Shown: positions 26,060 to 36,018 of the stretch, piece by piece
How positions within the stretch are numbered: position 1 is the stretch's first letter
How the letters are laid out: each line of letters starts with the position of its first letter
Assembly: GCA_012031225.1 (NCBI GenBank)
Contig: JAAUTZ010000008.1
Coordinates: 1 to 64,000, forward strand
Reading direction: 5' to 3'
Length of the DNA: 64,000 nt
DNA from: Chloroflexaceae bacterium
Lineage (GTDB): Bacteria; Chloroflexota; Chloroflexia; Chloroflexales; Chloroflexaceae
Made by a program: the position numbers and the translations under genes
Notes under the pieces: generated by a model
The model's database searches: none
Told to the model about the DNA's origin: nothing
Seen by the model: only the letters and a program-made list of their open reading frames with translations

Positions 26060-26905
26060 CTAGATATACTCACGTTGGGAGACGCGCCGCCGCCACTGCT
26101 CTTTGATCTCGACGGGGCTACCTTGGCTGACAATGAAGTCCATAATCAGCCGCCCAAACGTCGCAGTATCCTCAAGGAAGGGGAAGTGATTCAGACGTGG
26201 CAACACCAGCAACTGGTGCGGGCGGTCTGATTCGTTGTTCAGCACATTCGCGTGTTCCGGCGGTACAATTGAATCTTTCTCACCATACACCGCAAGCAGC
26301 GGCGTGTTCGTCAGGCCATTCATCATCGGGAGCAGATCCGTTTGGGCCACAGATTGTTGCACCGCCTTGACAACATTCTCGCTCAGACCCTCAGTATCAT
26401 CAACGACTTCTTGCTTGATCGTGGCATTGTCTATCGGCATTTGGCGGATCAGCTTGGACCACGTATCCGCCGGGCTGCTCCGCCCCATCAGCCGCGAGAG
26501 TGCATTCGGGCGGCTCGTCTCCCCAATGATCTGCCCCCGCAACGGAGTCGAGACAAGCATCAAGCGCGGGAACCGATCCGGGTGCGTGCGGGCGGCATGC
26601 ACCGCAACCATCCCACCCAAGCCGTGCCCAATCAGATTCGCCCGCGATACCCCCATCTGATTGGTAAACTGCACCAGCATTTCAGCATACGCCCCAATCG
26701 TATAGATATTCGTGCCGTTGCTGCGATCTGAGTCGCCAAAGCCCCAGAAGTCGAGGGCATAGGCGCGGTAACGCTCCGTGACCAGATCCATCATGGGGAC
26801 CCAATAACGCCACGAGCCAACCCAACTGTGCAGGAAAATAATCGGCTGACCGCGCCCGTACACTTCATAGTGGACTAAGCGATTGTCGAGATAGATTGCG
26901 CTCAT
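26060..26905 (-). CDS. alpha/beta hydrolase fold protein lacking the nucleophile
   Basis: A 281-residue alpha/beta hydrolase. The fold is complete: oxyanion-hole region FLHSWVGSWRYW, DFWGFGDSD, acid in YGEKDSIVPPEH and the catalytic-type His in LPRLNHFPFLED. The nucleophile elbow, however, reads IGHGLGG, so Gly95 replaces the usual Ser; a single base change (AGC to GGC) would explain it. It is therefore probably inactive as a classical hydrolase and may be a binding or signalling partner. Its ATG overlaps the histidine kinase stop (ATGA at 26902-26905), so the two are coupled. Last gene of the operon. Confidence 0.85.
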   Translation of the reverse strand: MSAIYLDNRLVHYEVYGRGQPIIFLHSWVGSWRYWVPMMDLVTERYRAYALDFWGFGDSDRSNGTNIYTIGAYAEMLVQFTNQMGVSRANLIGHGLGGMVAVHAARTHPDRFPRLMLVSTPLRGQIIGETSRPNALSRLMGRSSPADTWSKLIRQMPIDNATIKQEVVDDTEGLSENVVKAVQQSVAQTDLLPMMNGLTNTPLLAVYGEKDSIVPPEHANVLNNESDRPHQLLVLPRLNHFPFLEDTATFGRLIMDFIVSQGSPVEIKEQWRRRVSQREYI

Positions 26906-29900
26906 GCGGCATCCTCTTGCTCATCGCCGGTATGCTGGCGCAGGTCTTGCTCGAGCGGCAGCACAAAGTGGAAGACACTGCCTTTGCCCTGCTCGCTCGT
27001 CACCCACAGCTCGCCACCGTGCTGCTCCACGAGCGATTTGGTAATCAGCAAGCCTAGCCCCGTCCCTCCAGCCTGCTCGCTGAGCGGGTTGAAGGCGCGA
27101 TAGAAGGGGCGGAAGAGCTTCTGCTGCTGGGCGGGCGACAACCCGACCCCGTTGTCCTCAATCTCTACTTGGAGCAGATTGGCCGGATTGAGGAACGCCC
27201 GCACCACAATCGTACCGCCCTCATAGGTATACTTGATCGCATTGCTAAATAGGTTGGCGATCACTTGGGTGATGCGCTTCTCATCCGCAATAACAGACGG
27301 CAGATTGGGCTGCACTTCTAGTGTCACCTGCATCTTCTTGCGCTCTGCTTCGAGGCGCAGCGACTGCTCCACATCGCGGATGATCTCAGCGGCACTGATT
27401 GGCTTGAAGGCTAGCTCGATCTTGCCTGCCTCAAAGCGCGAAATCTCCAGAATATCATCCACCAAAGATCGGAGGCGGCGCACGTTTGATTTGACCACAT
27501 TCAGCAGTTCCTTTTGCTGCTCGTTCAGCGGCCCACCTGTGCCGAGCATCAGCAGATCCACGTAGCCGCCAATCGCCGTGAGCGGGGTTCGCAATTCGTG
27601 CGACACACCCGACACAAATTGCCGCTTCGCCCGATCTGCCTCAATCTCTAGCGTTATGTCGCGCAACACCGCGACATCGCCGTAGTTTTCGCCGCTACGG
27701 GATTGGATCGCTGAGAGGCTAACTGAAATGGTCTGGGTCGGGTTCTCCAATTCAAACGTGGTGCGAAAAATATCATCCCGCTCTTTTGCCGTCTTTAGCC
27801 CATTCCGGAGTGTCTCAAGAATAATTGCCCCGCGCTGGTGGGTCTCATCCGTCTCACCATAGTGGGCAATCGCATCCAATGTTTTATGCTTTACCGCGGC
27901 GGCGGGAATACCGAGCATCTGCTCCGCCGCAAGATTGAAAGCATCAATCATCTTCTCTTGATCAAGCACGATCACGCCTTCAGTCATACTCTGGAACACA
28001 GCATCATTCTTTGAATTGGCAAGCCGTTCTTCTTCCATCTTGGTTGCCAATTGGGTTGCCATTTCGTTGATATAGCCATACAGCAGAGCATTATTGATGG
28101 TAATCGCAATCTCATTGGCAACCGTTTCCAGCAGGCGCAGCTGTGACTCCGTGAAGTAGTTGATGCGCGGGCTATTCAGCATCAACACACCGAGAATATT
28201 GTCCGTCGTTTGCAGCGGCACAGCAATCACCGAGCGTGTTTCTTCGGCTCGTCCTTCCGCAACTGTCCAGCGCGGATCAAGCCGCACATCGCCAATCCGC
28301 ACCGGCTCGCGGTTGTTGATCACCCAATGCGCGAGGCTGTCGCCCCCCTGAAACGTGATCGGGAAGTTGACCCGATTGACCATGCCTTGCTCTTGCAGCA
28401 AAGCGCGGCAGAGGAGTTCCCCCGTCTGCGTATCGCGCAGCATAATTGAGCCGCGTGAGACAATCAGGTTGGCTGAAGTCATTTCGAGCGCACGCCCGAT
28501 GATCTCATCCAGATCAAGCAGGGCTGTGAGTTCAAGCGTGATCGCGTGAACAGTTTCGAGCCGCTCTTTCTCATCTACCAGCTGGGTATTGGCGGATGCC
28601 AATTCGCGGGTACGGTCAGCTACGCGAATCTCCAGATCGGCGGCGAGCTTGCTCGTCTGCTCAAACAGGCGGGCGTTCTCCAGTGCAATTGCCGCCGATG
28701 ATGCAATCGTCGAGAGGATGCGTACATCGTCGCTGCTATAGGCAACGGCTAGGTCATAGTTCCGCACGACAATCAAGCCGGTCACATGATCGGCAACCAC
28801 CATCGGCACCCCCAGCCACGCAAAGGGCTTGGTGTACTGTGCGCTGCGCATTTCGCTCGGCAATTCAACGAGCCACCCATCGGCGATGAGAGCATCACCC
28901 TGCACCAGCACCGGCTCAGGGCTGTGCAAGGCGTGGCGCGTCAAGCGCACCAGCACCGGCCAGCGGGGGATGCTTAACAAGGAGCGCAGATATTGGCTCT
29001 CACTGTCGTGGAGCGGGACCGGAGCGATCTGCTGGCGTTCGCCCTGCTCATAAAAGAGCGGGAAACTCAGCATACGGCGGTCTTCGTCGAGCAGCACAAT
29101 ATACAAATTACTCGTGTCAATCAGCCGCCCAATTTGGCGTTGGATCAGGGCCATCAGCTCATCACTGCTAACGGTTGCACTCAATTCACGCCCGATCTCA
29201 TTAAAGATCGTCAGCTCTTCAAGCCGTCGCCCGCGCTCAATGAATAGCCTGATGTTGGCGATACTTGCAGCAGCTTGGTTGGCAACGGTTGTAACGAAGC
29301 GCAGGTCGTCGTTATCAAAGGCACGCGGGGTATAGCTCTGGATGTTGATCACACCGAGCACCTGATCACCACTGATGATCGGCACGATCAGCAGCGATTG
29401 CGGCACTTGCGAGTGGGCAAGGCGTTGGCCCGTCTGCCCCGAACGCATCTCGAACAGGCTGAGCAGGCGATCATCAAACCCAATTTGGCGGGCTTGCTCG
29501 GGCGAAAGGATCAGCAGCGGCTGGCGGTTGCGAATGACCCAGCCATTCACATCGTTGCCAAGCACGGTGGGGGCAAGGTACACGCGGTTGCCGCGCTCAA
29601 AGGCAACCGGATACGAGAGCAGATCGAGTTCGGCAGCATACAGCGCAATCGCTGAGGTGCTAATATCTATGGCTTGGCCTAGCTCAAGGCGCAGCCGTTC
29701 CAGCACGGTAGGCAGATCGAGCGACGTTGAGAGGGCCGCCCCAATATCTTTCAGCACGCTCATCTCGCGCAGGCGGCGTTCACGCTCTTGCAGCAGGCGG
29801 GCACTAGCAATTGCGGCGGCGGCTTGGCTGGCAATCGTGCTGAGGAACTGGAGATCATCATTGGTGAAGGCATACGGCTGCTGGCTTTCAATCCCGATAA

Positions 29901-32304
29901 TGCCTTGCAGATCGCGCCCTTGCATGATCGGCACCGCGAGCAGCGAGGCAAAGTTCGTGTTGATCGGGGAGCGATGCATCCGCTCACGCGCAACGCTGTA
30001 CTGGCTACTCCACTCATCGAGGTGGGCTTCGATCACTTCGGGCGTTTCCAGCAGTAACGCTTCACTCCGCAACATGACGTAATCAATCAAGCCCGAACCA
30101 TCAATCACCACTGTTGCATCGCTGAGGTGGGGCGTATCGCCCTGCTGGATCACGCGGAGCTGGACGGTATACTCAGCAACATCAAGGCTGGTATCTTCAA
30201 ACAATCCGATGTACGATTGGCAGTTGTCGAGAATATTGCCAATCCCACGCTGCAACGTCAGCAGTAGCTCATCCAGATTGAGCGTCGCATTCACATCTAC
30301 GCTGATCTGATTGATCGCACTGAGTTGATTGATCCGGTGTTCGCGCTCTTGGAACAGGCGGGCGTTTTCAAGCGCAACTGCCGCTTGCCGGCCGAGTGCA
30401 ACCAAAAGCTGCATCTCATCTTCGCTGAATTCGCGTTCATGGGTACTCATCACACTGAGGACACCGATCACCTGATCGCGGTAGAGCAGGGGCACACCCA
30501 TATACGAAGAGAGCGGAGCCTGCGACCCATCAGCAGTGCGAATGTCGTTGAACAACGCCCCGCCGTGCCCTTGCACATCGGTAATACGGAGCGGTTCACC
30601 AGTTTTGGCGACATACCCAGTCAGCCCCTGCCCAAACGGAACCCGCATCGTGGTGAGGGCTTCCAGTGCAATCCCATAGATCGCGGCGGGGGTCAATACC
30701 TGATCACTGCCCATCGTCCACAATGCAACCGTCGTAACTTGCAACTGGCGGCGCACGAGGTCAATCAAGCTATCCAGCACCTCTTTGGGGCGGAGCAGCG
30801 ATCCCAGAATGCCCGCCGCTTCGAGCAGCGTTGAGAGTTCACCGACCTTGACGTGCAGTGCTTCCGAATTCTGCTTAGCATCCTCAAAGAGCCGCTCTTT
30901 GTCAATCACCGTCACGACGGTATTGGCAAGGGTCTGGCAGTAGGCAAGATGCTGCGGGTTGAAGTTGCGCCGCTCATCGTACACCGAGAGGCTGATGAGA
31001 CCAAGCAAGTTGTCATTGAGCACAAGCGGGATGTACGCAATTGAGGCGATCTGCAACGAATCGAGCAGGGCATGCACTGGCGCAAGCAAGGGATCGCTTT
31101 GGGCATCGTAGCTGGCGAAGGGAACCCGATGCTGCTCCAGCCATGCCACCAGCGGGTTAGCATTGATCGGGATCACAATGCGCTTGGGCTGTGCGGTGGG
31201 GATATACTCCGACACTTCGATAAAGCTCTGCTGGGCTTGATCTAAGAAGAACACCAACGCTTGATCGGCGGCGGTGATCTGCACCATTGACTCAATCGCG
31301 GCGTAGTAGATCTCCTGCGTTGTGCCATTGGAAGCCGCGACAGAGGAGACGAAGTTGAGCAAGCTCAGTTGGAGAATTTGCTCTTCCACTTGGAGCTGGA
31401 GCTGAATGCTCTGCACCCCAGTAGCAACTTGGCGGGCGATGCTGTGGAGCAATGCCAGTTCGTGATCGCTGTAGGCGCGGGCTGTCTGCGAGAGGACCAT
31501 ATGCCCGACATTCTGGTAGCGGCCAACAATTAGGGGCACACCGAGATGATACTGCGTCTGATCGGCTTCGGCAGTCTGCCAGCGATAGGGCTGATTGGTT
31601 TGCGCTAGCACCGCTTCGGGGCTGCCCGCTTGCGGGCGCGGCGGTGCGCTATACGTGACAATATCATCTGGGCGGGCAGTGAAGCAGAGTTCTTGCGGGT
31701 TGGTATCGCTGTAGTAGACCGCCACACGGTAGGTATCGGCGGGTATCCACGCGGAGAATGTGCGATACGCATAGGAGATCCACGCGCTGAGATTATATGA
31801 GGTTGCGGCCGCCTGCGCCAAATCGCTGATCAGCTGCAACTCAGCAACGGTGTAGACAGCCGGATTGAGCGGCTCTTGTGCGGTGGCAAGCAATGTGCCA
31901 AGCTGGACGCTGAGGGCCCGCAGATACAGCTCGTCGCTAGCGGTCAGGATGACGGCCGGATGCAGCACCAACACTCCCCGCCGGACGGTGCGATTGGCAC
32001 TGGCGGTAAACGGAAAGCTGGCAAACTGGGTCGCTGCACCAGTGGGAGCGGTGTGCCACGCTTGCAGCAGCCCGTCAGCTTGACCGGCATCCATGCCCCA
32101 CGCAAGATACACCGTTGGAGCATCCCCGTCGGTGATGACTACGCCGGGCAGATCGGCGAGGTAGTGCTGCAACAGATCGTGTAGCGACTGGCGCAACACC
32201 GCTGGCTCAAGCGGGTGGCTGACAGTCTGTGCCGTTAGGGTCAGGTGTGCCAACAGTTCCCAGCGTTGGTCACGCACTGCGGTTGTAGTTAGCTCCGTAT
32301 CCAT
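26902..32304 (-). CDS. giant multi-GAF sensor histidine kinase
   Basis: An 1800-residue kinase without obvious membrane helices, so probably cytoplasmic. Seven GAF-type repeats of roughly 180 residues can be counted by the recurring end motif of the form (G/A)VP-x(5-8)-GV-x(n)-LLxxxAxQAAxAxxxARLF, with short coiled linkers (LFQERE, LLQERE, LFIERG) between. A PAS-like segment follows (about 1415-1540, AVFQSMTEGVIVLDQE), then the HisKA dimerisation domain with phospho-His in GVSHELRTPLTAIGGY (about residue 1555) and the ATPase domain with the N box NLFSNAIKY, G1 EDNGVGLS and G2 GGTGLGLLI. Its partner is presumably the response regulator 47 bp upstream. The ligands of the GAF domains are not evident. 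Confidence 0.93.
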   Translation of the reverse strand: MDTELTTTAVRDQRWELLAHLTLTAQTVSHPLEPAVLRQSLHDLLQHYLADLPGVVITDGDAPTVYLAWGMDAGQADGLLQAWHTAPTGAATQFASFPFTASANRTVRRGVLVLHPAVILTASDELYLRALSVQLGTLLATAQEPLNPAVYTVAELQLISDLAQAAATSYNLSAWISYAYRTFSAWIPADTYRVAVYYSDTNPQELCFTARPDDIVTYSAPPRPQAGSPEAVLAQTNQPYRWQTAEADQTQYHLGVPLIVGRYQNVGHMVLSQTARAYSDHELALLHSIARQVATGVQSIQLQLQVEEQILQLSLLNFVSSVAASNGTTQEIYYAAIESMVQITAADQALVFFLDQAQQSFIEVSEYIPTAQPKRIVIPINANPLVAWLEQHRVPFASYDAQSDPLLAPVHALLDSLQIASIAYIPLVLNDNLLGLISLSVYDERRNFNPQHLAYCQTLANTVVTVIDKERLFEDAKQNSEALHVKVGELSTLLEAAGILGSLLRPKEVLDSLIDLVRRQLQVTTVALWTMGSDQVLTPAAIYGIALEALTTMRVPFGQGLTGYVAKTGEPLRITDVQGHGGALFNDIRTADGSQAPLSSYMGVPLLYRDQVIGVLSVMSTHEREFSEDEMQLLVALGRQAAVALENARLFQEREHRINQLSAINQISVDVNATLNLDELLLTLQRGIGNILDNCQSYIGLFEDTSLDVAEYTVQLRVIQQGDTPHLSDATVVIDGSGLIDYVMLRSEALLLETPEVIEAHLDEWSSQYSVARERMHRSPINTNFASLLAVPIMQGRDLQGIIGIESQQPYAFTNDDLQFLSTIASQAAAAIASARLLQERERRLREMSVLKDIGAALSTSLDLPTVLERLRLELGQAIDISTSAIALYAAELDLLSYPVAFERGNRVYLAPTVLGNDVNGWVIRNRQPLLILSPEQARQIGFDDRLLSLFEMRSGQTGQRLAHSQVPQSLLIVPIISGDQVLGVINIQSYTPRAFDNDDLRFVTTVANQAAASIANIRLFIERGRRLEELTIFNEIGRELSATVSSDELMALIQRQIGRLIDTSNLYIVLLDEDRRMLSFPLFYEQGERQQIAPVPLHDSESQYLRSLLSIPRWPVLVRLTRHALHSPEPVLVQGDALIADGWLVELPSEMRSAQYTKPFAWLGVPMVVADHVTGLIVVRNYDLAVAYSSDDVRILSTIASSAAIALENARLFEQTSKLAADLEIRVADRTRELASANTQLVDEKERLETVHAITLELTALLDLDEIIGRALEMTSANLIVSRGSIMLRDTQTGELLCRALLQEQGMVNRVNFPITFQGGDSLAHWVINNREPVRIGDVRLDPRWTVAEGRAEETRSVIAVPLQTTDNILGVLMLNSPRINYFTESQLRLLETVANEIAITINNALLYGYINEMATQLATKMEEERLANSKNDAVFQSMTEGVIVLDQEKMIDAFNLAAEQMLGIPAAAVKHKTLDAIAHYGETDETHQRGAIILETLRNGLKTAKERDDIFRTTFELENPTQTISVSLSAIQSRSGENYGDVAVLRDITLEIEADRAKRQFVSGVSHELRTPLTAIGGYVDLLMLGTGGPLNEQQKELLNVVKSNVRRLRSLVDDILEISRFEAGKIELAFKPISAAEIIRDVEQSLRLEAERKKMQVTLEVQPNLPSVIADEKRITQVIANLFSNAIKYTYEGGTIVVRAFLNPANLLQVEIEDNGVGLSPAQQQKLFRPFYRAFNPLSEQAGGTGLGLLITKSLVEQHGGELWVTSEQGKGSVFHFVLPLEQDLRQHTGDEQEDAA

Positions 32305-32351
32305 ATTGCTGATCCTGCCTGTTGCTCTAAGGCGATGCTCACGCAGGCGAA

Positions 32352-33299
32352 TCAGGCGATACGGCCATAGTGGGCAAAGCTCTTGCGTGATTGTTCACGG
32401 GCTTCGGTCGTAGCACGCTGGCGTGTTTCTTCGAGGATCTCACCAAGTTCCCGTATATCATAGAACGGTCCATCTTGGCTACTCAGCACACCCGCAGAGA
32501 GCGCCATAAGCGGCAGGCGGCGCAGTTGCCCGGTTTCGTCGGTCACTTCAATATAGCCCTGCTCACGGTGCTTGAAGTTGTAGTGCAAACCGACCTCGTT
32601 GTCAAAGCGCGTAATGATCGTATCGAGCAATACCCGCATGCGCTCCGGCGTACTCGTGATCAGAAATTCGGGGCCGACGATCATGTGCCCCAGAAAATCC
32701 TCATCGTTCCCAGACTCGTTGATCGCATCGTTGAGCAGCAGGGCCGTAAACTTCAGCACATCTTCGCCGACTGTGCCGCCGTAGGCTTGGGTGAAGCTCT
32801 CAAAGCCATTGATATGCAGCAGGGCAACTGCCCAGCCATTGCTCGTCATCAAGCCGCGCAGCTGCTCGCTGATGATGTCCGCCGTCGGCAGATTGGTAAC
32901 GGGGTGCGATTGGTTCTTGCGGCGGGCATCTTCAAGCTGGTTCTTGACGATGATATGGACTTCCTCAATATCAAACGGCTTGATCAGGTAATGCTGGGCT
33001 TGCACCTCGCCCAGCCCTTTGAGGCGATCCGCCCGTTCGCCGCGTGCGGTCAGGAAGATGATCGGGATATGGCGCGTGCGTGGGCTAGCCCGCAACGCTT
33101 TGCCAATGTCGTAGCCCTCCATATCCGGCAGCATCACGTCCAACAAGGCAAGGTTGGGCGGGGTCTTGCGGCAGATTTCGAGCGCAACCTGCCCCCGCAT
33201 TGCCGTCATCACCTCGTAGCCCTGCGAGGTGAAGTAGATTTTCAGGAGGCTCGAAATGTCAGGGGCATCTTCGACTACTAATATGCGTTCTTTCGTCAC
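32352..33299 (-). CDS. response regulator with degenerate GGDEF domain
   Basis: A 315-residue protein. Residues 1-120 form a receiver with Asp11, phospho-Asp54 (LLDVMLPD), Thr84 and Lys107. The second half looks like a diguanylate cyclase domain (NLPTADIISEQL, then ALLHINGFESFTQAYGG), but the active-site loop reads IVGPEFLI at 207-214 in place of GGDEF, so cyclase activity is very unlikely. It could bind a nucleotide or a partner. The start is GTG with AAGGAG upstream. It lies between the hexapeptide-repeat gene (15 bp upstream) and the giant kinase (47 bp downstream), its presumed phosphodonor. Confidence 0.88.
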   Translation of the reverse strand: MTKERILVVEDAPDISSLLKIYFTSQGYEVMTAMRGQVALEICRKTPPNLALLDVMLPDMEGYDIGKALRASPRTRHIPIIFLTARGERADRLKGLGEVQAQHYLIKPFDIEEVHIIVKNQLEDARRKNQSHPVTNLPTADIISEQLRGLMTSNGWAVALLHINGFESFTQAYGGTVGEDVLKFTALLLNDAINESGNDEDFLGHMIVGPEFLITSTPERMRVLLDTIITRFDNEVGLHYNFKHREQGYIEVTDETGQLRRLPLMALSAGVLSSQDGPFYDIRELGEILEETRQRATTEAREQSRKSFAHYGRIA

Positions 33300-33314
33300 A
33301 GCTAGGTACTCCTT

Positions 33315-34898
33315 CTACGCTCCACCAGAATAGATGCTTTGAGGTTCATTGATCGGGATAGCAACCGCGTTCCGTTCAGTCTGAGCCGCCAATGGCAGGG
33401 CATCATGCACGCCCGCCTCGAACGCCGCTGAAGGCTGGTGTTTCACCAGTGGATTATGATGATCAAAGTCGGGCGCGTGGTCAAGGGCTTCAGCGGGGGA
33501 CACGTCGCGCCGCACAAGCGGGCGCGGGTCGCGCAATTCGCCCGTTTCGGGATTGTACAGGTACGGCCAGCGATAGACGGTGCGTTGCACCTCGCTGTGC
33601 ATGTCTTCCTCTGGCGGAGTGGGAGCATCGTGCCGGGGGACATTGACGGCCCGCCGGATCACGTTGAAATCGTTGTCAAGGATCAGCACGGTGTTCGAGC
33701 CAATCATCCGCCCCGGATAGGTGTAGAAGCCACTGCCGATCTTGCAGTGGTGGCCAACGGCACTGCCCAACACGGGCGTACACACATCTTCGAGCTTGCC
33801 GCGATGCAGGGTGCGGATTGGCTCGCCGAGCAGGTTGAAGTCGGTGAAGGTGCTGCCCGCACCGATGAACGTATTGCGCCCGATCACACCGAGCTGCACG
33901 CAGGTGTTTTGGGCAACCATGCTGCCGTCCATCAGGCTACTCATAAAGATCGCACTGTTGAAGGGCAGGAAGCAGCGATCACTGATGACACTGAGCATCA
34001 CTTGTGCGCCCTGCATAATGTTGACGTTGCTCCCGATCAAGCTGTTCGTAATCACCGCACCGGGCCCAATGTAGACATTATCCCCGATGATAGTCGGACC
34101 GTGAATGATTGCGGTTGGATCAATCGAGCAGTTCTTACCCACCTTCACCAGCTTGCGGCAGGCGAGGAAGTGATTGCGCCAGTGATCTTCAAAGGGATTG
34201 ATCCGTTCCCCGAACGATGTGAGCAGGAGTTCGATTTTGGGGCGGAGGGCATGCCAATCGTGCTTATCCCACGTGCGGATATTGGCGAGCCGCCCGCGTT
34301 GCATCAGATCATCCACCTGCCGCGCCCAATTGAACACCCCGAAGGGCGTACTCGCAAGGTAGATATGCACCCAACTCTCAATCGAGAGAAACACCCGATT
34401 GGGCACTTGGAAGACCAGATCGCCCTGCTGCGGAGCCATATACTGGGGAATGTTGTAGTAGCCCATCTCGTAGGCTTGCGTATCAATCACGAGGGGCTGC
34501 GGCGCGTGGCGTTTGCCCGCCGGGAAGTAGTACATCTCGGCGACATACACATCGCCCGTGCGCTGAATGCCCGTTGCAAGCGGCAGGGCGTGCGTGGTGA
34601 TGGCTTTGTCATCCAGCGCGAACGCGATTTGGCAGGCAGTGCGGCGGGCGCGAGCCTGCACGATAAACTCGTCTACTAACTCTTGATTGAAGAACAGGTT
34701 ATCTTTGCAGACGAAATGCTCGTCATCGAAATGATCCGGCAGTTCTTCGATCCCGTCTAGTTCCAGCATGCCTTTACAATGACGCGCAAGCAGATCGCGC
34801 TGCAACAGCCAGAGCTGCTTGTTGAGCAGGCGCAATTCTGAGGCGGGTTCGCCAAACGGAGCTATGGGTGTTGCATCGTGAATAATTATTCGTTTCAT
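33315..34898 (-). CDS. GlmU-like protein with left-handed beta-helix
   Basis: A 527-residue protein. The central and C-terminal part (about 240-400) is a hexapeptide-repeat beta-helix (PTAIIHGPTIIGDNVYIGPG; VISDRCFLPFNSAIFMSS), like the acyltransferase half of GlmU and of sugar-nucleotide enzymes. The N-terminal 230 residues occupy the place of a nucleotidyltransferase domain, but I do not see the Gly-rich pyrophosphorylase signature, so that activity is doubtful. Possible roles are sugar-nucleotide metabolism or scaffolding. It is the first gene of the signalling operon, with promoter and a leader inverted repeat upstream; AGGAAG is the ribosome site. Confidence 0.7.
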   Translation of the reverse strand: MKRIIIHDATPIAPFGEPASELRLLNKQLWLLQRDLLARHCKGMLELDGIEELPDHFDDEHFVCKDNLFFNQELVDEFIVQARARRTACQIAFALDDKAITTHALPLATGIQRTGDVYVAEMYYFPAGKRHAPQPLVIDTQAYEMGYYNIPQYMAPQQGDLVFQVPNRVFLSIESWVHIYLASTPFGVFNWARQVDDLMQRGRLANIRTWDKHDWHALRPKIELLLTSFGERINPFEDHWRNHFLACRKLVKVGKNCSIDPTAIIHGPTIIGDNVYIGPGAVITNSLIGSNVNIMQGAQVMLSVISDRCFLPFNSAIFMSSLMDGSMVAQNTCVQLGVIGRNTFIGAGSTFTDFNLLGEPIRTLHRGKLEDVCTPVLGSAVGHHCKIGSGFYTYPGRMIGSNTVLILDNDFNVIRRAVNVPRHDAPTPPEEDMHSEVQRTVYRWPYLYNPETGELRDPRPLVRRDVSPAEALDHAPDFDHHNPLVKHQPSAAFEAGVHDALPLAAQTERNAVAIPINEPQSIYSGGA

Positions 34899-34950
34899 CG
34901 AACACTATCTTCCTATATACGGCGAAACGTCGCTGCCGATAGATTACTTA

Positions 34951-34974
34951 CTACTGTAAATCTACGTACAGTAG
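34951..34974 (-). promoter_or_regulatory. leader inverted repeat of the signalling operon
   Basis: Perfect CTACTGTA / TACAGTAG repeat with an 8-nt centre, about 53 nt upstream of the first start codon and about 75 nt downstream of the predicted transcription start. It could be an operator or an RNA hairpin. Confidence 0.45.
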
Positions 34975-35050
34975 CAGCATTCTCGCCAGATGGTAAGATT
35001 ACGTTCGGATTACACACGGTAGCGCAGCCCCAGCATGACTGCCTGACGGT

Positions 35051-35079
35051 ATTGTACACGATGGGCTGATGAGCGTCAA
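35051..35079 (-). promoter_or_regulatory. promoter of the four-gene signalling operon
   Basis: On the minus strand, TTGACG (35074-35079), 17-bp spacer, TACAAT (35051-35056); 5 of 6 matches in each hexamer. The transcript would have a leader of about 145 nt before the hexapeptide-repeat gene. Confidence 0.75.
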
Positions 35080-35100
35080 CACTATACATAATGCTATTCA

Positions 35101-36018
35101 TCACGAGTGTTCAATGTTCGGTGATTGATACCAATGCGCCAGCAGTGCCGCTAGCTCGTTCAGGGCGAGTTGGTCTATCGGTTGGTGCAGCCGCGCTACC
35201 GCCGTTTGCAGCATTTGCACTTGGTGCGGGTACAAGGGTGCGTTCGCGCCATGCACCAACGTATTCAGCAGAGCCGTGTAGGAGAGCGCAAGGTCGCCCG
35301 CTGCTACCGGCTCTGACGCAATCGCCTGTAGGCTCGCTTCGATTTGGCGTTGCACCTGCGGCCAGTCCAGCAGATCGGGCATCTCGTGGAGCATCGCCAG
35401 CACGCGCTCAAGCCGGGCAAGCGCGGCGGTTCGGGGCAGGGTGTCAGGTAGGGTGGGCGTAGGCACAGGCGGCTCTGGCAAGATGGGCACGGCAGGCGGC
35501 TCTGGCGGCGCACCAATGAGGTGGGTGAGCAGGTGCGGCAGAGCATCGGTAAGCATCTGCTGCATCGCGTGGGCGTATGCCATCCACGCCCCAACCTGCA
35601 TCCGAAACGGATCGGGAATATCGCGTTCAGTTGCGGCAAGCTCACTTAGCGTCAGGATCTTGGCGCGGGCAGTCGGGTAGTATTGGCGCAACACATGGGC
35701 AATGCCGCGATCTATCGCTACCAGTAGCGTCGCGGATTGGACCAGTTCAGCCGAAATTGAGCGGGCACGGTGGGCAGCTATATCCACGCCAAAAGCAGCC
35801 ATCGCATCACGGGCTTCAACCTCTGGCGGGTCGTCATCGTGGCCCGTCACACCAGCCGAAGCCACGCAACAGGTGGGGGCCTGTTCGGCAAGCAATTGGC
35901 GCAGCAACGCCACAGCCATTGGCGCACGCCCAGTATCTGCGCCACCTACGATCAGGATCGTGGCATCAGCTGGAGGCGTTGTCGGTATTACGCTCACACT
36001 GCGGTCTACGGTACTCAT
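35101..36018 (-). CDS. low-molecular-weight phosphatase-like protein without catalytic Cys
   Basis: A 305-residue protein. Residues 20-150 follow the low-molecular-weight protein tyrosine phosphatase fold: ILIVGGADTGRAPMA stands where the family has V-C-x-G-N-x-C-R-S-P-M-A, then VASAGV, and the general-acid motif IPDPF with Asp136. The catalytic Cys is Gly25 and the second Cys is Gly30, while Arg31 remains, so phosphatase chemistry is lost but anion binding may persist. The last 120 residues are a Pro-rich hinge and an all-helical domain of unknown type. It is upstream of the multi-GAF operon on the same strand, but the operon promoter lies between them. Confidence 0.8.
   Translation of the reverse strand: MSTVDRSVSVIPTTPPADATILIVGGADTGRAPMAVALLRQLLAEQAPTCCVASAGVTGHDDDPPEVEARDAMAAFGVDIAAHRARSISAELVQSATLLVAIDRGIAHVLRQYYPTARAKILTLSELAATERDIPDPFRMQVGAWMAYAHAMQQMLTDALPHLLTHLIGAPPEPPAVPILPEPPVPTPTLPDTLPRTAALARLERVLAMLHEMPDLLDWPQVQRQIEASLQAIASEPVAAGDLALSYTALLNTLVHGANAPLYPHQVQMLQTAVARLHQPIDQLALNELAALLAHWYQSPNIEHS

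Follow-up and report, generated by a model that had tools for sequence, protein, structure and literature searches.

Bacterial sensors with an alpha/beta hydrolase as partner are known from RsbQ-RsbP, in which the hydrolase gene adjoins the gene of a PAS-bearing sensor and signalling requires the Ser-Asp-His triad of RsbQ; RsbQ-PAS modules, found in Bacillus subtilis and others, have known histidine-kinase and diguanylate-cyclase outputs (PMC3183031). A kinase tied genomically to a Ras-like GTPase is found in the conservons (AGPS; CvnA-D with the accessory CvnF; PMC13343842) and in Rup/MglA (PMC4316618), and conservons join kinase, Roadblock protein, DUF742 protein and GTPase as one system in one operon, with no response regulator (PMC13343842, PMC4316618). 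Here we analyze a locus that resembles both in part, encoded within a 64,000-nucleotide stretch of DNA (positions 1 to 64,000 of contig JAAUTZ010000008.1, hereafter the window) from the 4.2 Mb genome of a Chloroflexaceae bacterium (GCA_012031225.1). In this locus a histidine kinase (HK) and a response regulator (RR) share an operon with an alpha/beta-hydrolase-fold protein without a nucleophile (AbH) and a left-handed beta-helix protein (LbH). No description of such a locus was found in the literature searched, a limited library.

An earlier analysis made from the letters alone (the sequence-only reading) had proposed five linked genes on one strand, and all five lie at the claimed positions, with Pfam backing each fold. 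Taken in the direction of transcription along the minus strand, the five open reading frames (ORFs) encode a low-molecular-weight-phosphatase-like protein (LMW; 35101-36018; LMWPc, 5.8e-16); LbH (33315-34898; 527 amino acids; Hexapep, 1.5e-15), the first gene of the operon; RR (32352-33299; Response_reg, with GGDEF below the cut-off); HK (26902-32304; 1800 amino acids; GAF, PAS, HisKA, and HATPase_c), in which Pfam finds seven GAF stretches, as had been claimed; and AbH (26060-26905; Abhydrolase_1, 1.9e-27), which ends in a conserved C-terminal tail (KEQWRRRVSQREYI). The AbH ORF overlaps the HK stop by 4 bp, and among 53 loci there are 38 in which the AbH start falls within the stop of the gene before it (HK, or in four loci a stand-alone receiver-domain protein, REC). 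LMW is a looser member of the locus, possibly with its own promoter.

To place this locus, we surveyed 158 genomes of the window's class (families f1-f14, of which f1-f4 form the window's order and f6 and f8 are outgroup families). A close RR orthologue (E below 1e-75; counted by hand) is present in 71 of them, comprising all f1, f2, and f3 genomes, the f4 genomes outside genera g27 and g34, and a single genome from f6 and another from f8. Fifty-two loci around the gene pair were extracted, some with cut contigs and some with fragmented or shortened kinase genes, and 50 loci from the window's order share the arrangement LbH-RR-HK-AbH, which is also found in f6 and f8. Of the 71 class genomes with the locus, 66 also encode a V4R protein (matches below 1e-50), although it is unlinked in f1, and none of the 87 genomes without the locus encodes one; V4R and LMW co-occurrence was likewise counted by hand. 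Both the conserved neighbourhood and the co-occurrence asked for by the sequence-only reading are thus found in the window's order. These counts are not independent events, because g27 and g34 may represent one or two losses. In these two f4 genera (G057, G058, and G071-G081; 1.7-4 Mb), locus, V4R, LMW, and GTPase are jointly absent.

The residue losses are equally conserved, with Ser, GGDEF, and Cys gone in essentially all orthologues of the window's order. Since the losses are shared across these orthologues, we rejected local decay as their explanation. The nucleophile elbow of AbH reads GHGLGG, with Gly95 in place of Ser as had been claimed, and Gly occupies this position in 51 of 51 sequences of the window's order (window included). 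AbH therefore has no Ser, Cys, or Asp nucleophile at the elbow and in this respect departs from alpha/beta-hydrolase enzymes; Asp211 and His240 of the triad are invariant in 26 aligned orthologues and are also kept in other classes. The oxyanion motif is HS in the window's order versus HG in the f6 (L110) and f8 (L111) loci. A Ser-bearing AbH paralogue (AbH2) is missing the C-terminal tail. The f8 hydrolase was considered as a Ser-bearing AbH orthologue and rejected, as it has no tail and groups with AbH2; its contig ends just beyond.

The signature loop of RR is degenerate as described earlier (VGPEF at residues 208-212), which departs from the GG(D/E)EF motif of diguanylate cyclases, and it is degenerate in all orthologues of the window's order (VGPDF, VGPEF, TGPDF, VGQSF, and similar). 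The loop reads GGSDF or GGADF in f6 and f8, and GGDNF or GGDDF in other classes (GGDNL in one case), so that GGDDF, GGDNF, GGSDF, and VGPDF form a graded series of intermediates. No I-site is visible in the GGDEF-like domain of RR, and an EAL domain is absent (the protein is REC-GGDEF only). The acceptor D54 of RR is intact in the window and invariant among orthologues. HK keeps its phosphotransfer boxes (SHELRTP, NLFSNAIKY, and DNGVGL); the pair thus has the HisKA H-box, the HATPase N and G boxes, and the receiver Asp of an orthodox two-component system. Pfam finds no receiver domain in the window kinase, and the L163 kinase carries two. The number of GAF domains among HK orthologues ranges from 1 to 16 (7 in the window, 16 in L101, 10 in L165, 4 in L163, and 1 in L099). 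HK looks like a signal integrator with an input part free to grow and a constant output part.

Selection on these genes was estimated as the ratio of nonsynonymous to synonymous substitution rates (dN/dS) against a congener of the window genome. Values were 0.105 for AbH, 0.102 for HK, 0.069 for RR, 0.117 for LbH, and 0.25 for LMW, compared with 0.095 for the Ser-bearing AbH2 and 0.11 and 0.135 for two neighbouring genes. Given the near-equal ratios of AbH and AbH2, the protein without Ser is held about as tightly as its Ser-bearing paralogue.

When 400 genomes drawn from the phylum were searched with an LbH profile, 70 proved to have the family. Several families outside the class, possibly Anaerolineae, are represented among them, and 18 of the loci were retrieved (L161-L178). 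The fullest cluster comprises DUF4388, a Ras-like GTPase, AbH2, V4R, LbH, RR, a giant multi-GAF HK, REC, and AbH, and DUF4388-GTPase-AbH2 clusters with the remaining genes in most loci of other classes. At all 16 loci of this kind where AbH2 was found, its elbow is GHSMGG or GHSTGG. In the distal AbH, Ser is replaced by Gly, Ala, or Asp in every case with a readable motif (GHGLGA, GHALGG, GHDLGA, and GHGLGG), and all complete sequences end in a basic tail like KEEWRRRVR. This cluster is the older, larger form, and in the window's order it has come apart. The window genome has Roadblock, DUF4388, Ras-like GTPase, a small protein, and AbH2 in a row elsewhere (G000:C182; L115, 5811-9265), where the DUF4388 protein has a weak match to DUF742 of the CvnC type (E 0.0056), reminiscent of conservons. 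GTPase and AbH2 are also adjacent in G022 and G019, and lie about 9 kb apart in the f2 genomes G042 and G047. A Roadblock gene like that of the window genome was not found in the other-class clusters. V4R of the window genome is at G000:C89, beside a MoaB-like gene; such V4R neighbours of a MoaB/Mog-like gene in f1 are L135:6332-6961 and L136:7290-7925, and the Cys residues at the V4R C-terminus, kept in G006, are lost from the window genome. Many of the 18 loci have an acyl-ACP-reductase-like gene between or near LbH and RR (e.g., L165:9175-10272; TIGR04058 and PigE matches below the cut-off), which the window's locus lacks.

LbH had been described as GlmU-like, with a nucleotidyltransferase half lacking a clear signature. 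Its hexapeptide beta-helix is secure (Pfam), but we could not confirm that the N-terminal half is a nucleotidyltransferase. This half is strongly conserved (P14, F15, L22, R23, N26, K27, EMGYY, and others), gives no convincing Pfam match in 28 orthologues, and lacks the Gly-rich LxxGxGTR loop. Its motifs NKPL and then DNLFF are spaced like those of nucleotidyltransferases by eye, but hhalign gives no support: against alt-GlmU (signature RPVxxLRxG) and NTP_transferase, significant matches are confined to the beta-helix, and the alignment of DNLFF with GDNIFF is non-significant. A separate alt-GlmU candidate is encoded elsewhere in the window genome (C176). LbH as a proven pseudo-nucleotidyltransferase is thus not supported, Pfam and hhalign returning the beta-helix alone. 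As the N-terminal half is an orphan domain, LbH drops out of the set of degenerate enzymes, and of the four such enzymes originally proposed, AbH, RR, and LMW remain, with conserved losses. In 22 loci (including L071, L073, L075, L078-L081, and L100-L109), a UvrA-like gene (mostly 913-1033 amino acids) lies directly upstream of LbH or V4R on the same strand; this unrelated-looking neighbour is not in the window's locus and was set aside as a member of the system.

LMW reads V24-GGADTG-R31 where phosphatases have CxGNxCR, so that catalytic Cys25 is replaced by Gly, as stated earlier, and the second Cys, at position 30, is Gly as well; its GGADTGRA departs from the phosphatase P-loop C(X)5R(S/T). 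The catalytic Cys is missing from 30 of 30 orthologues inspected (Gly in 29 and Ser in one), nearly all of which retain Arg31 and the DP motif. A canonical form (CTANQCRS) is present in f6, and the L163 match (CTGNLCRS), a canonical phosphatase, was excluded from the orthologue count. Among the LMW pseudophosphatases of the window and L179-L197, G(G/A)(A/S/T)(D/N)TGR is nearly invariant at the P-loop site, and the roughly 130 residues at the C-terminal end belong to no family.

The linkage of LMW to the operon had been regarded as weaker, which agrees with our analysis: the gene is specific to the order and adjoins LbH only in part of f1, lying elsewhere in the genome in other families. LMW is outside the oldest form of the unit and would be a later accessory. 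There is an even chance that it is an unrelated neighbour, a possibility favored by this restricted adjacency, by its higher dN/dS, and by a promoter candidate that would give LbH its own start and separate LMW from the operon. This promoter had been proposed from the letters, and a sigma-70-like site was indeed found upstream of LbH (35051-35079, minus strand; TTGACG-17-TACAAT, 10/12 match) in the gap of about 200 bases between the two genes, but sites of this kind are about as frequent there as expected by chance (6 found in the region versus 5.1 expected). On the other hand, LMW tracks the locus, being present in 63 of the 69 order genomes that have it and in none of the 13 (g27 and g34) that do not, and in two f4 genomes it lies beside a second V4R paralogue (L186, G056:C25; and L187, G070:C4).

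We tentatively favor, at just short of an even chance, a conserved two-component system in which non-hydrolytic AbH is the ligand-binding subunit, with a ligand, partners, and output that we infer. This reading starts from observations, namely which genes are present and in what order, the conserved residue losses, the purifying selection, the intact phosphotransfer motifs, and the larger cluster of other families with AbH2, V4R, and the Ras-like GTPase. Because the losses are shared by orthologues, the order is conserved, and the genes co-occur, the earlier suggestion that these folds serve binding rather than catalysis appears reasonable, as judged from sequence, for AbH, the GGDEF-like domain, and LMW; it does not extend to LbH. 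The multiple GAF domains of HK would integrate cytosolic signals. AbH, a hydrolase minus its nucleophile with acid and base kept, would bind a small ligand without turnover and may report it to HK via its conserved basic C-terminal tail. HK would phosphorylate D54 of RR, as well as the stand-alone REC in loci that have one. The GGDEF-like domain of RR would no longer make cyclic di-GMP (c-di-GMP) and would instead give a binding output, probably onto its constant neighbour LbH, a putative oligomeric scaffold or effector. Synthesis or removal of the ligand probably falls to AbH2, and in full-cluster lineages the Ras-like GTPase is plausibly the output. The acyl-reductase-like neighbour weakly hints at an acyl-derived ligand. 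A more specific, phylum-level scheme, in which catalytic AbH2 would be the enzyme and dead AbH the receptor for a small molecule derived from an acyl compound and AbH would gate the multi-GAF HK, acting through the pseudo-GGDEF RR and the LbH scaffold on the Ras-like GTPase, is rather unlikely in its entirety.

Several observations weigh against a ligand-binding AbH within one joint system. In the window's family the operon is separated from V4R, AbH2, and GTPase, and since these have drifted apart, joint function there rests on co-occurrence. The f6 AbH (L110) has the elbow GHSLGG together with the tail, the sole tailed AbH with Ser found. In the maximum-likelihood AbH tree, the tailed AbH proteins of the window's order (support 100) and of other classes (99) form separate clades joined by weak deep nodes (58-60), and the tree does not separate one Ser loss from two; constraining all tailed or all Ser-less AbH to one clade was not rejected (approximately unbiased test, AU p 0.45 and 0.37). 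A structure prediction of LbH from three sequences reached only pLDDT 31 and was left unused for a fold search. Finally, because Asp211 and His240 are invariant, residual non-serine chemistry is possible, and the pair may fit it as well as binding.

This last point leads to an alternative in which AbH is alive, its Asp-His pair performing general-base hydration, proton abstraction, or cofactor-free oxygenation and so making a ligand for the GAF or PAS domains of HK, in an RsbQ-like manner. The retention of both residues in other classes is in its favor, as is the dependence of RsbQ signalling on its triad (PMC3183031). Nevertheless, the elbow residue varies (G, A, or D) and the oxyanion HG is altered in the order, which would be expected after the loss of transition-state chemistry, and a Ser-bearing paralogue is maintained alongside; we consider this alternative unlikely. 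The intact phosphotransfer motifs of HK and RR would also suit an ordinary two-component system, whose metabolic or structural neighbours merely share its promoter, whose substitutions are incidental, and whose LbH is an active hexapeptide acyltransferase, in keeping with its likeness to active beta-helices of the GlmU/eIF2B type. This appears quite improbable, as the substitutions persist throughout the order under selection matching that on AbH2, and gene order and co-occurrence hold well beyond the genus.

Another possibility, compatible with parts of the explanation that we favor and overlapping with it in confidence, is a counterpart of the conservons, in which HK and the hydrolase pair regulate the Ras-like GTPase and the true output is this GTPase rather than RR. 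It draws on the DUF4388-GTPase-AbH2 genes within the same cluster in most other-class loci, on their row with Roadblock in the window genome, and on the four-protein conservon system itself. We regard it as doubtful, considering that in the window's order the GTPase module is not adjacent to the kinase operon, that the window-type Roadblock gene was not found in the other-class clusters, and that response regulators, which conservons lack, are a constant feature of this system.

A two-component system with a ligand-binding AbH may work like RsbQ-RsbP or the conservons but belongs to neither. RsbQ needs its whole triad, whereas AbH has Gly for Ser and keeps only Asp and His; RsbQ lies upstream of a partner with an N-terminal PAS domain, whereas AbH lies downstream of a kinase in which GAF domains dominate and the PAS domain (approximately residues 1434-1557) follows them, beside HisKA. 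The resemblance to conservons extends to the Roadblock protein with GTPase in the window genome and to cytosolic accessory proteins tuning a kinase, and in function it may be real. Unlike in conservons, however, no Roadblock, DUF742, or GTPase gene is beside the window kinase, DUF4388 replaces DUF742, and the system has response regulators, alpha/beta hydrolases, V4R, and a beta-helix protein.

Outside bacteria, the plant receptors D14/KAI2 use the hydrolase fold as a receptor after duplication and functional split, but unlike AbH they keep Ser, and GID1 is a hydrolase-fold receptor in which a different triad residue is lost; the partner proteins of these receptors are unrelated to those of AbH. 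NDRG proteins and neuroligins are eukaryotic non-catalytic hydrolase folds with no two-component context, and they share with AbH a Gly at the nucleophile elbow. As for RR, regulators of the LapD type and others likewise use a GGDEF domain without cyclase motif in signalling (PMC3032553). RR differs from them as a REC-GGDEF protein with neither EAL nor a visible I-site.

The system is best called a new variant, namely two-component signalling with pseudoenzyme accessories. Signalling in the window's phylum is little studied, and to our knowledge bacterial systems that hold several enzyme folds non-catalytic over such depth are rarely documented. With Ser-bearing and Ser-less hydrolases clustered together with a giant kinase and a GTPase, how an enzyme gives rise to a receptor becomes testable in bacteria. 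The conserved sequences suggest that in these bacteria enzyme folds may have been taken over for signal binding instead of catalysis.

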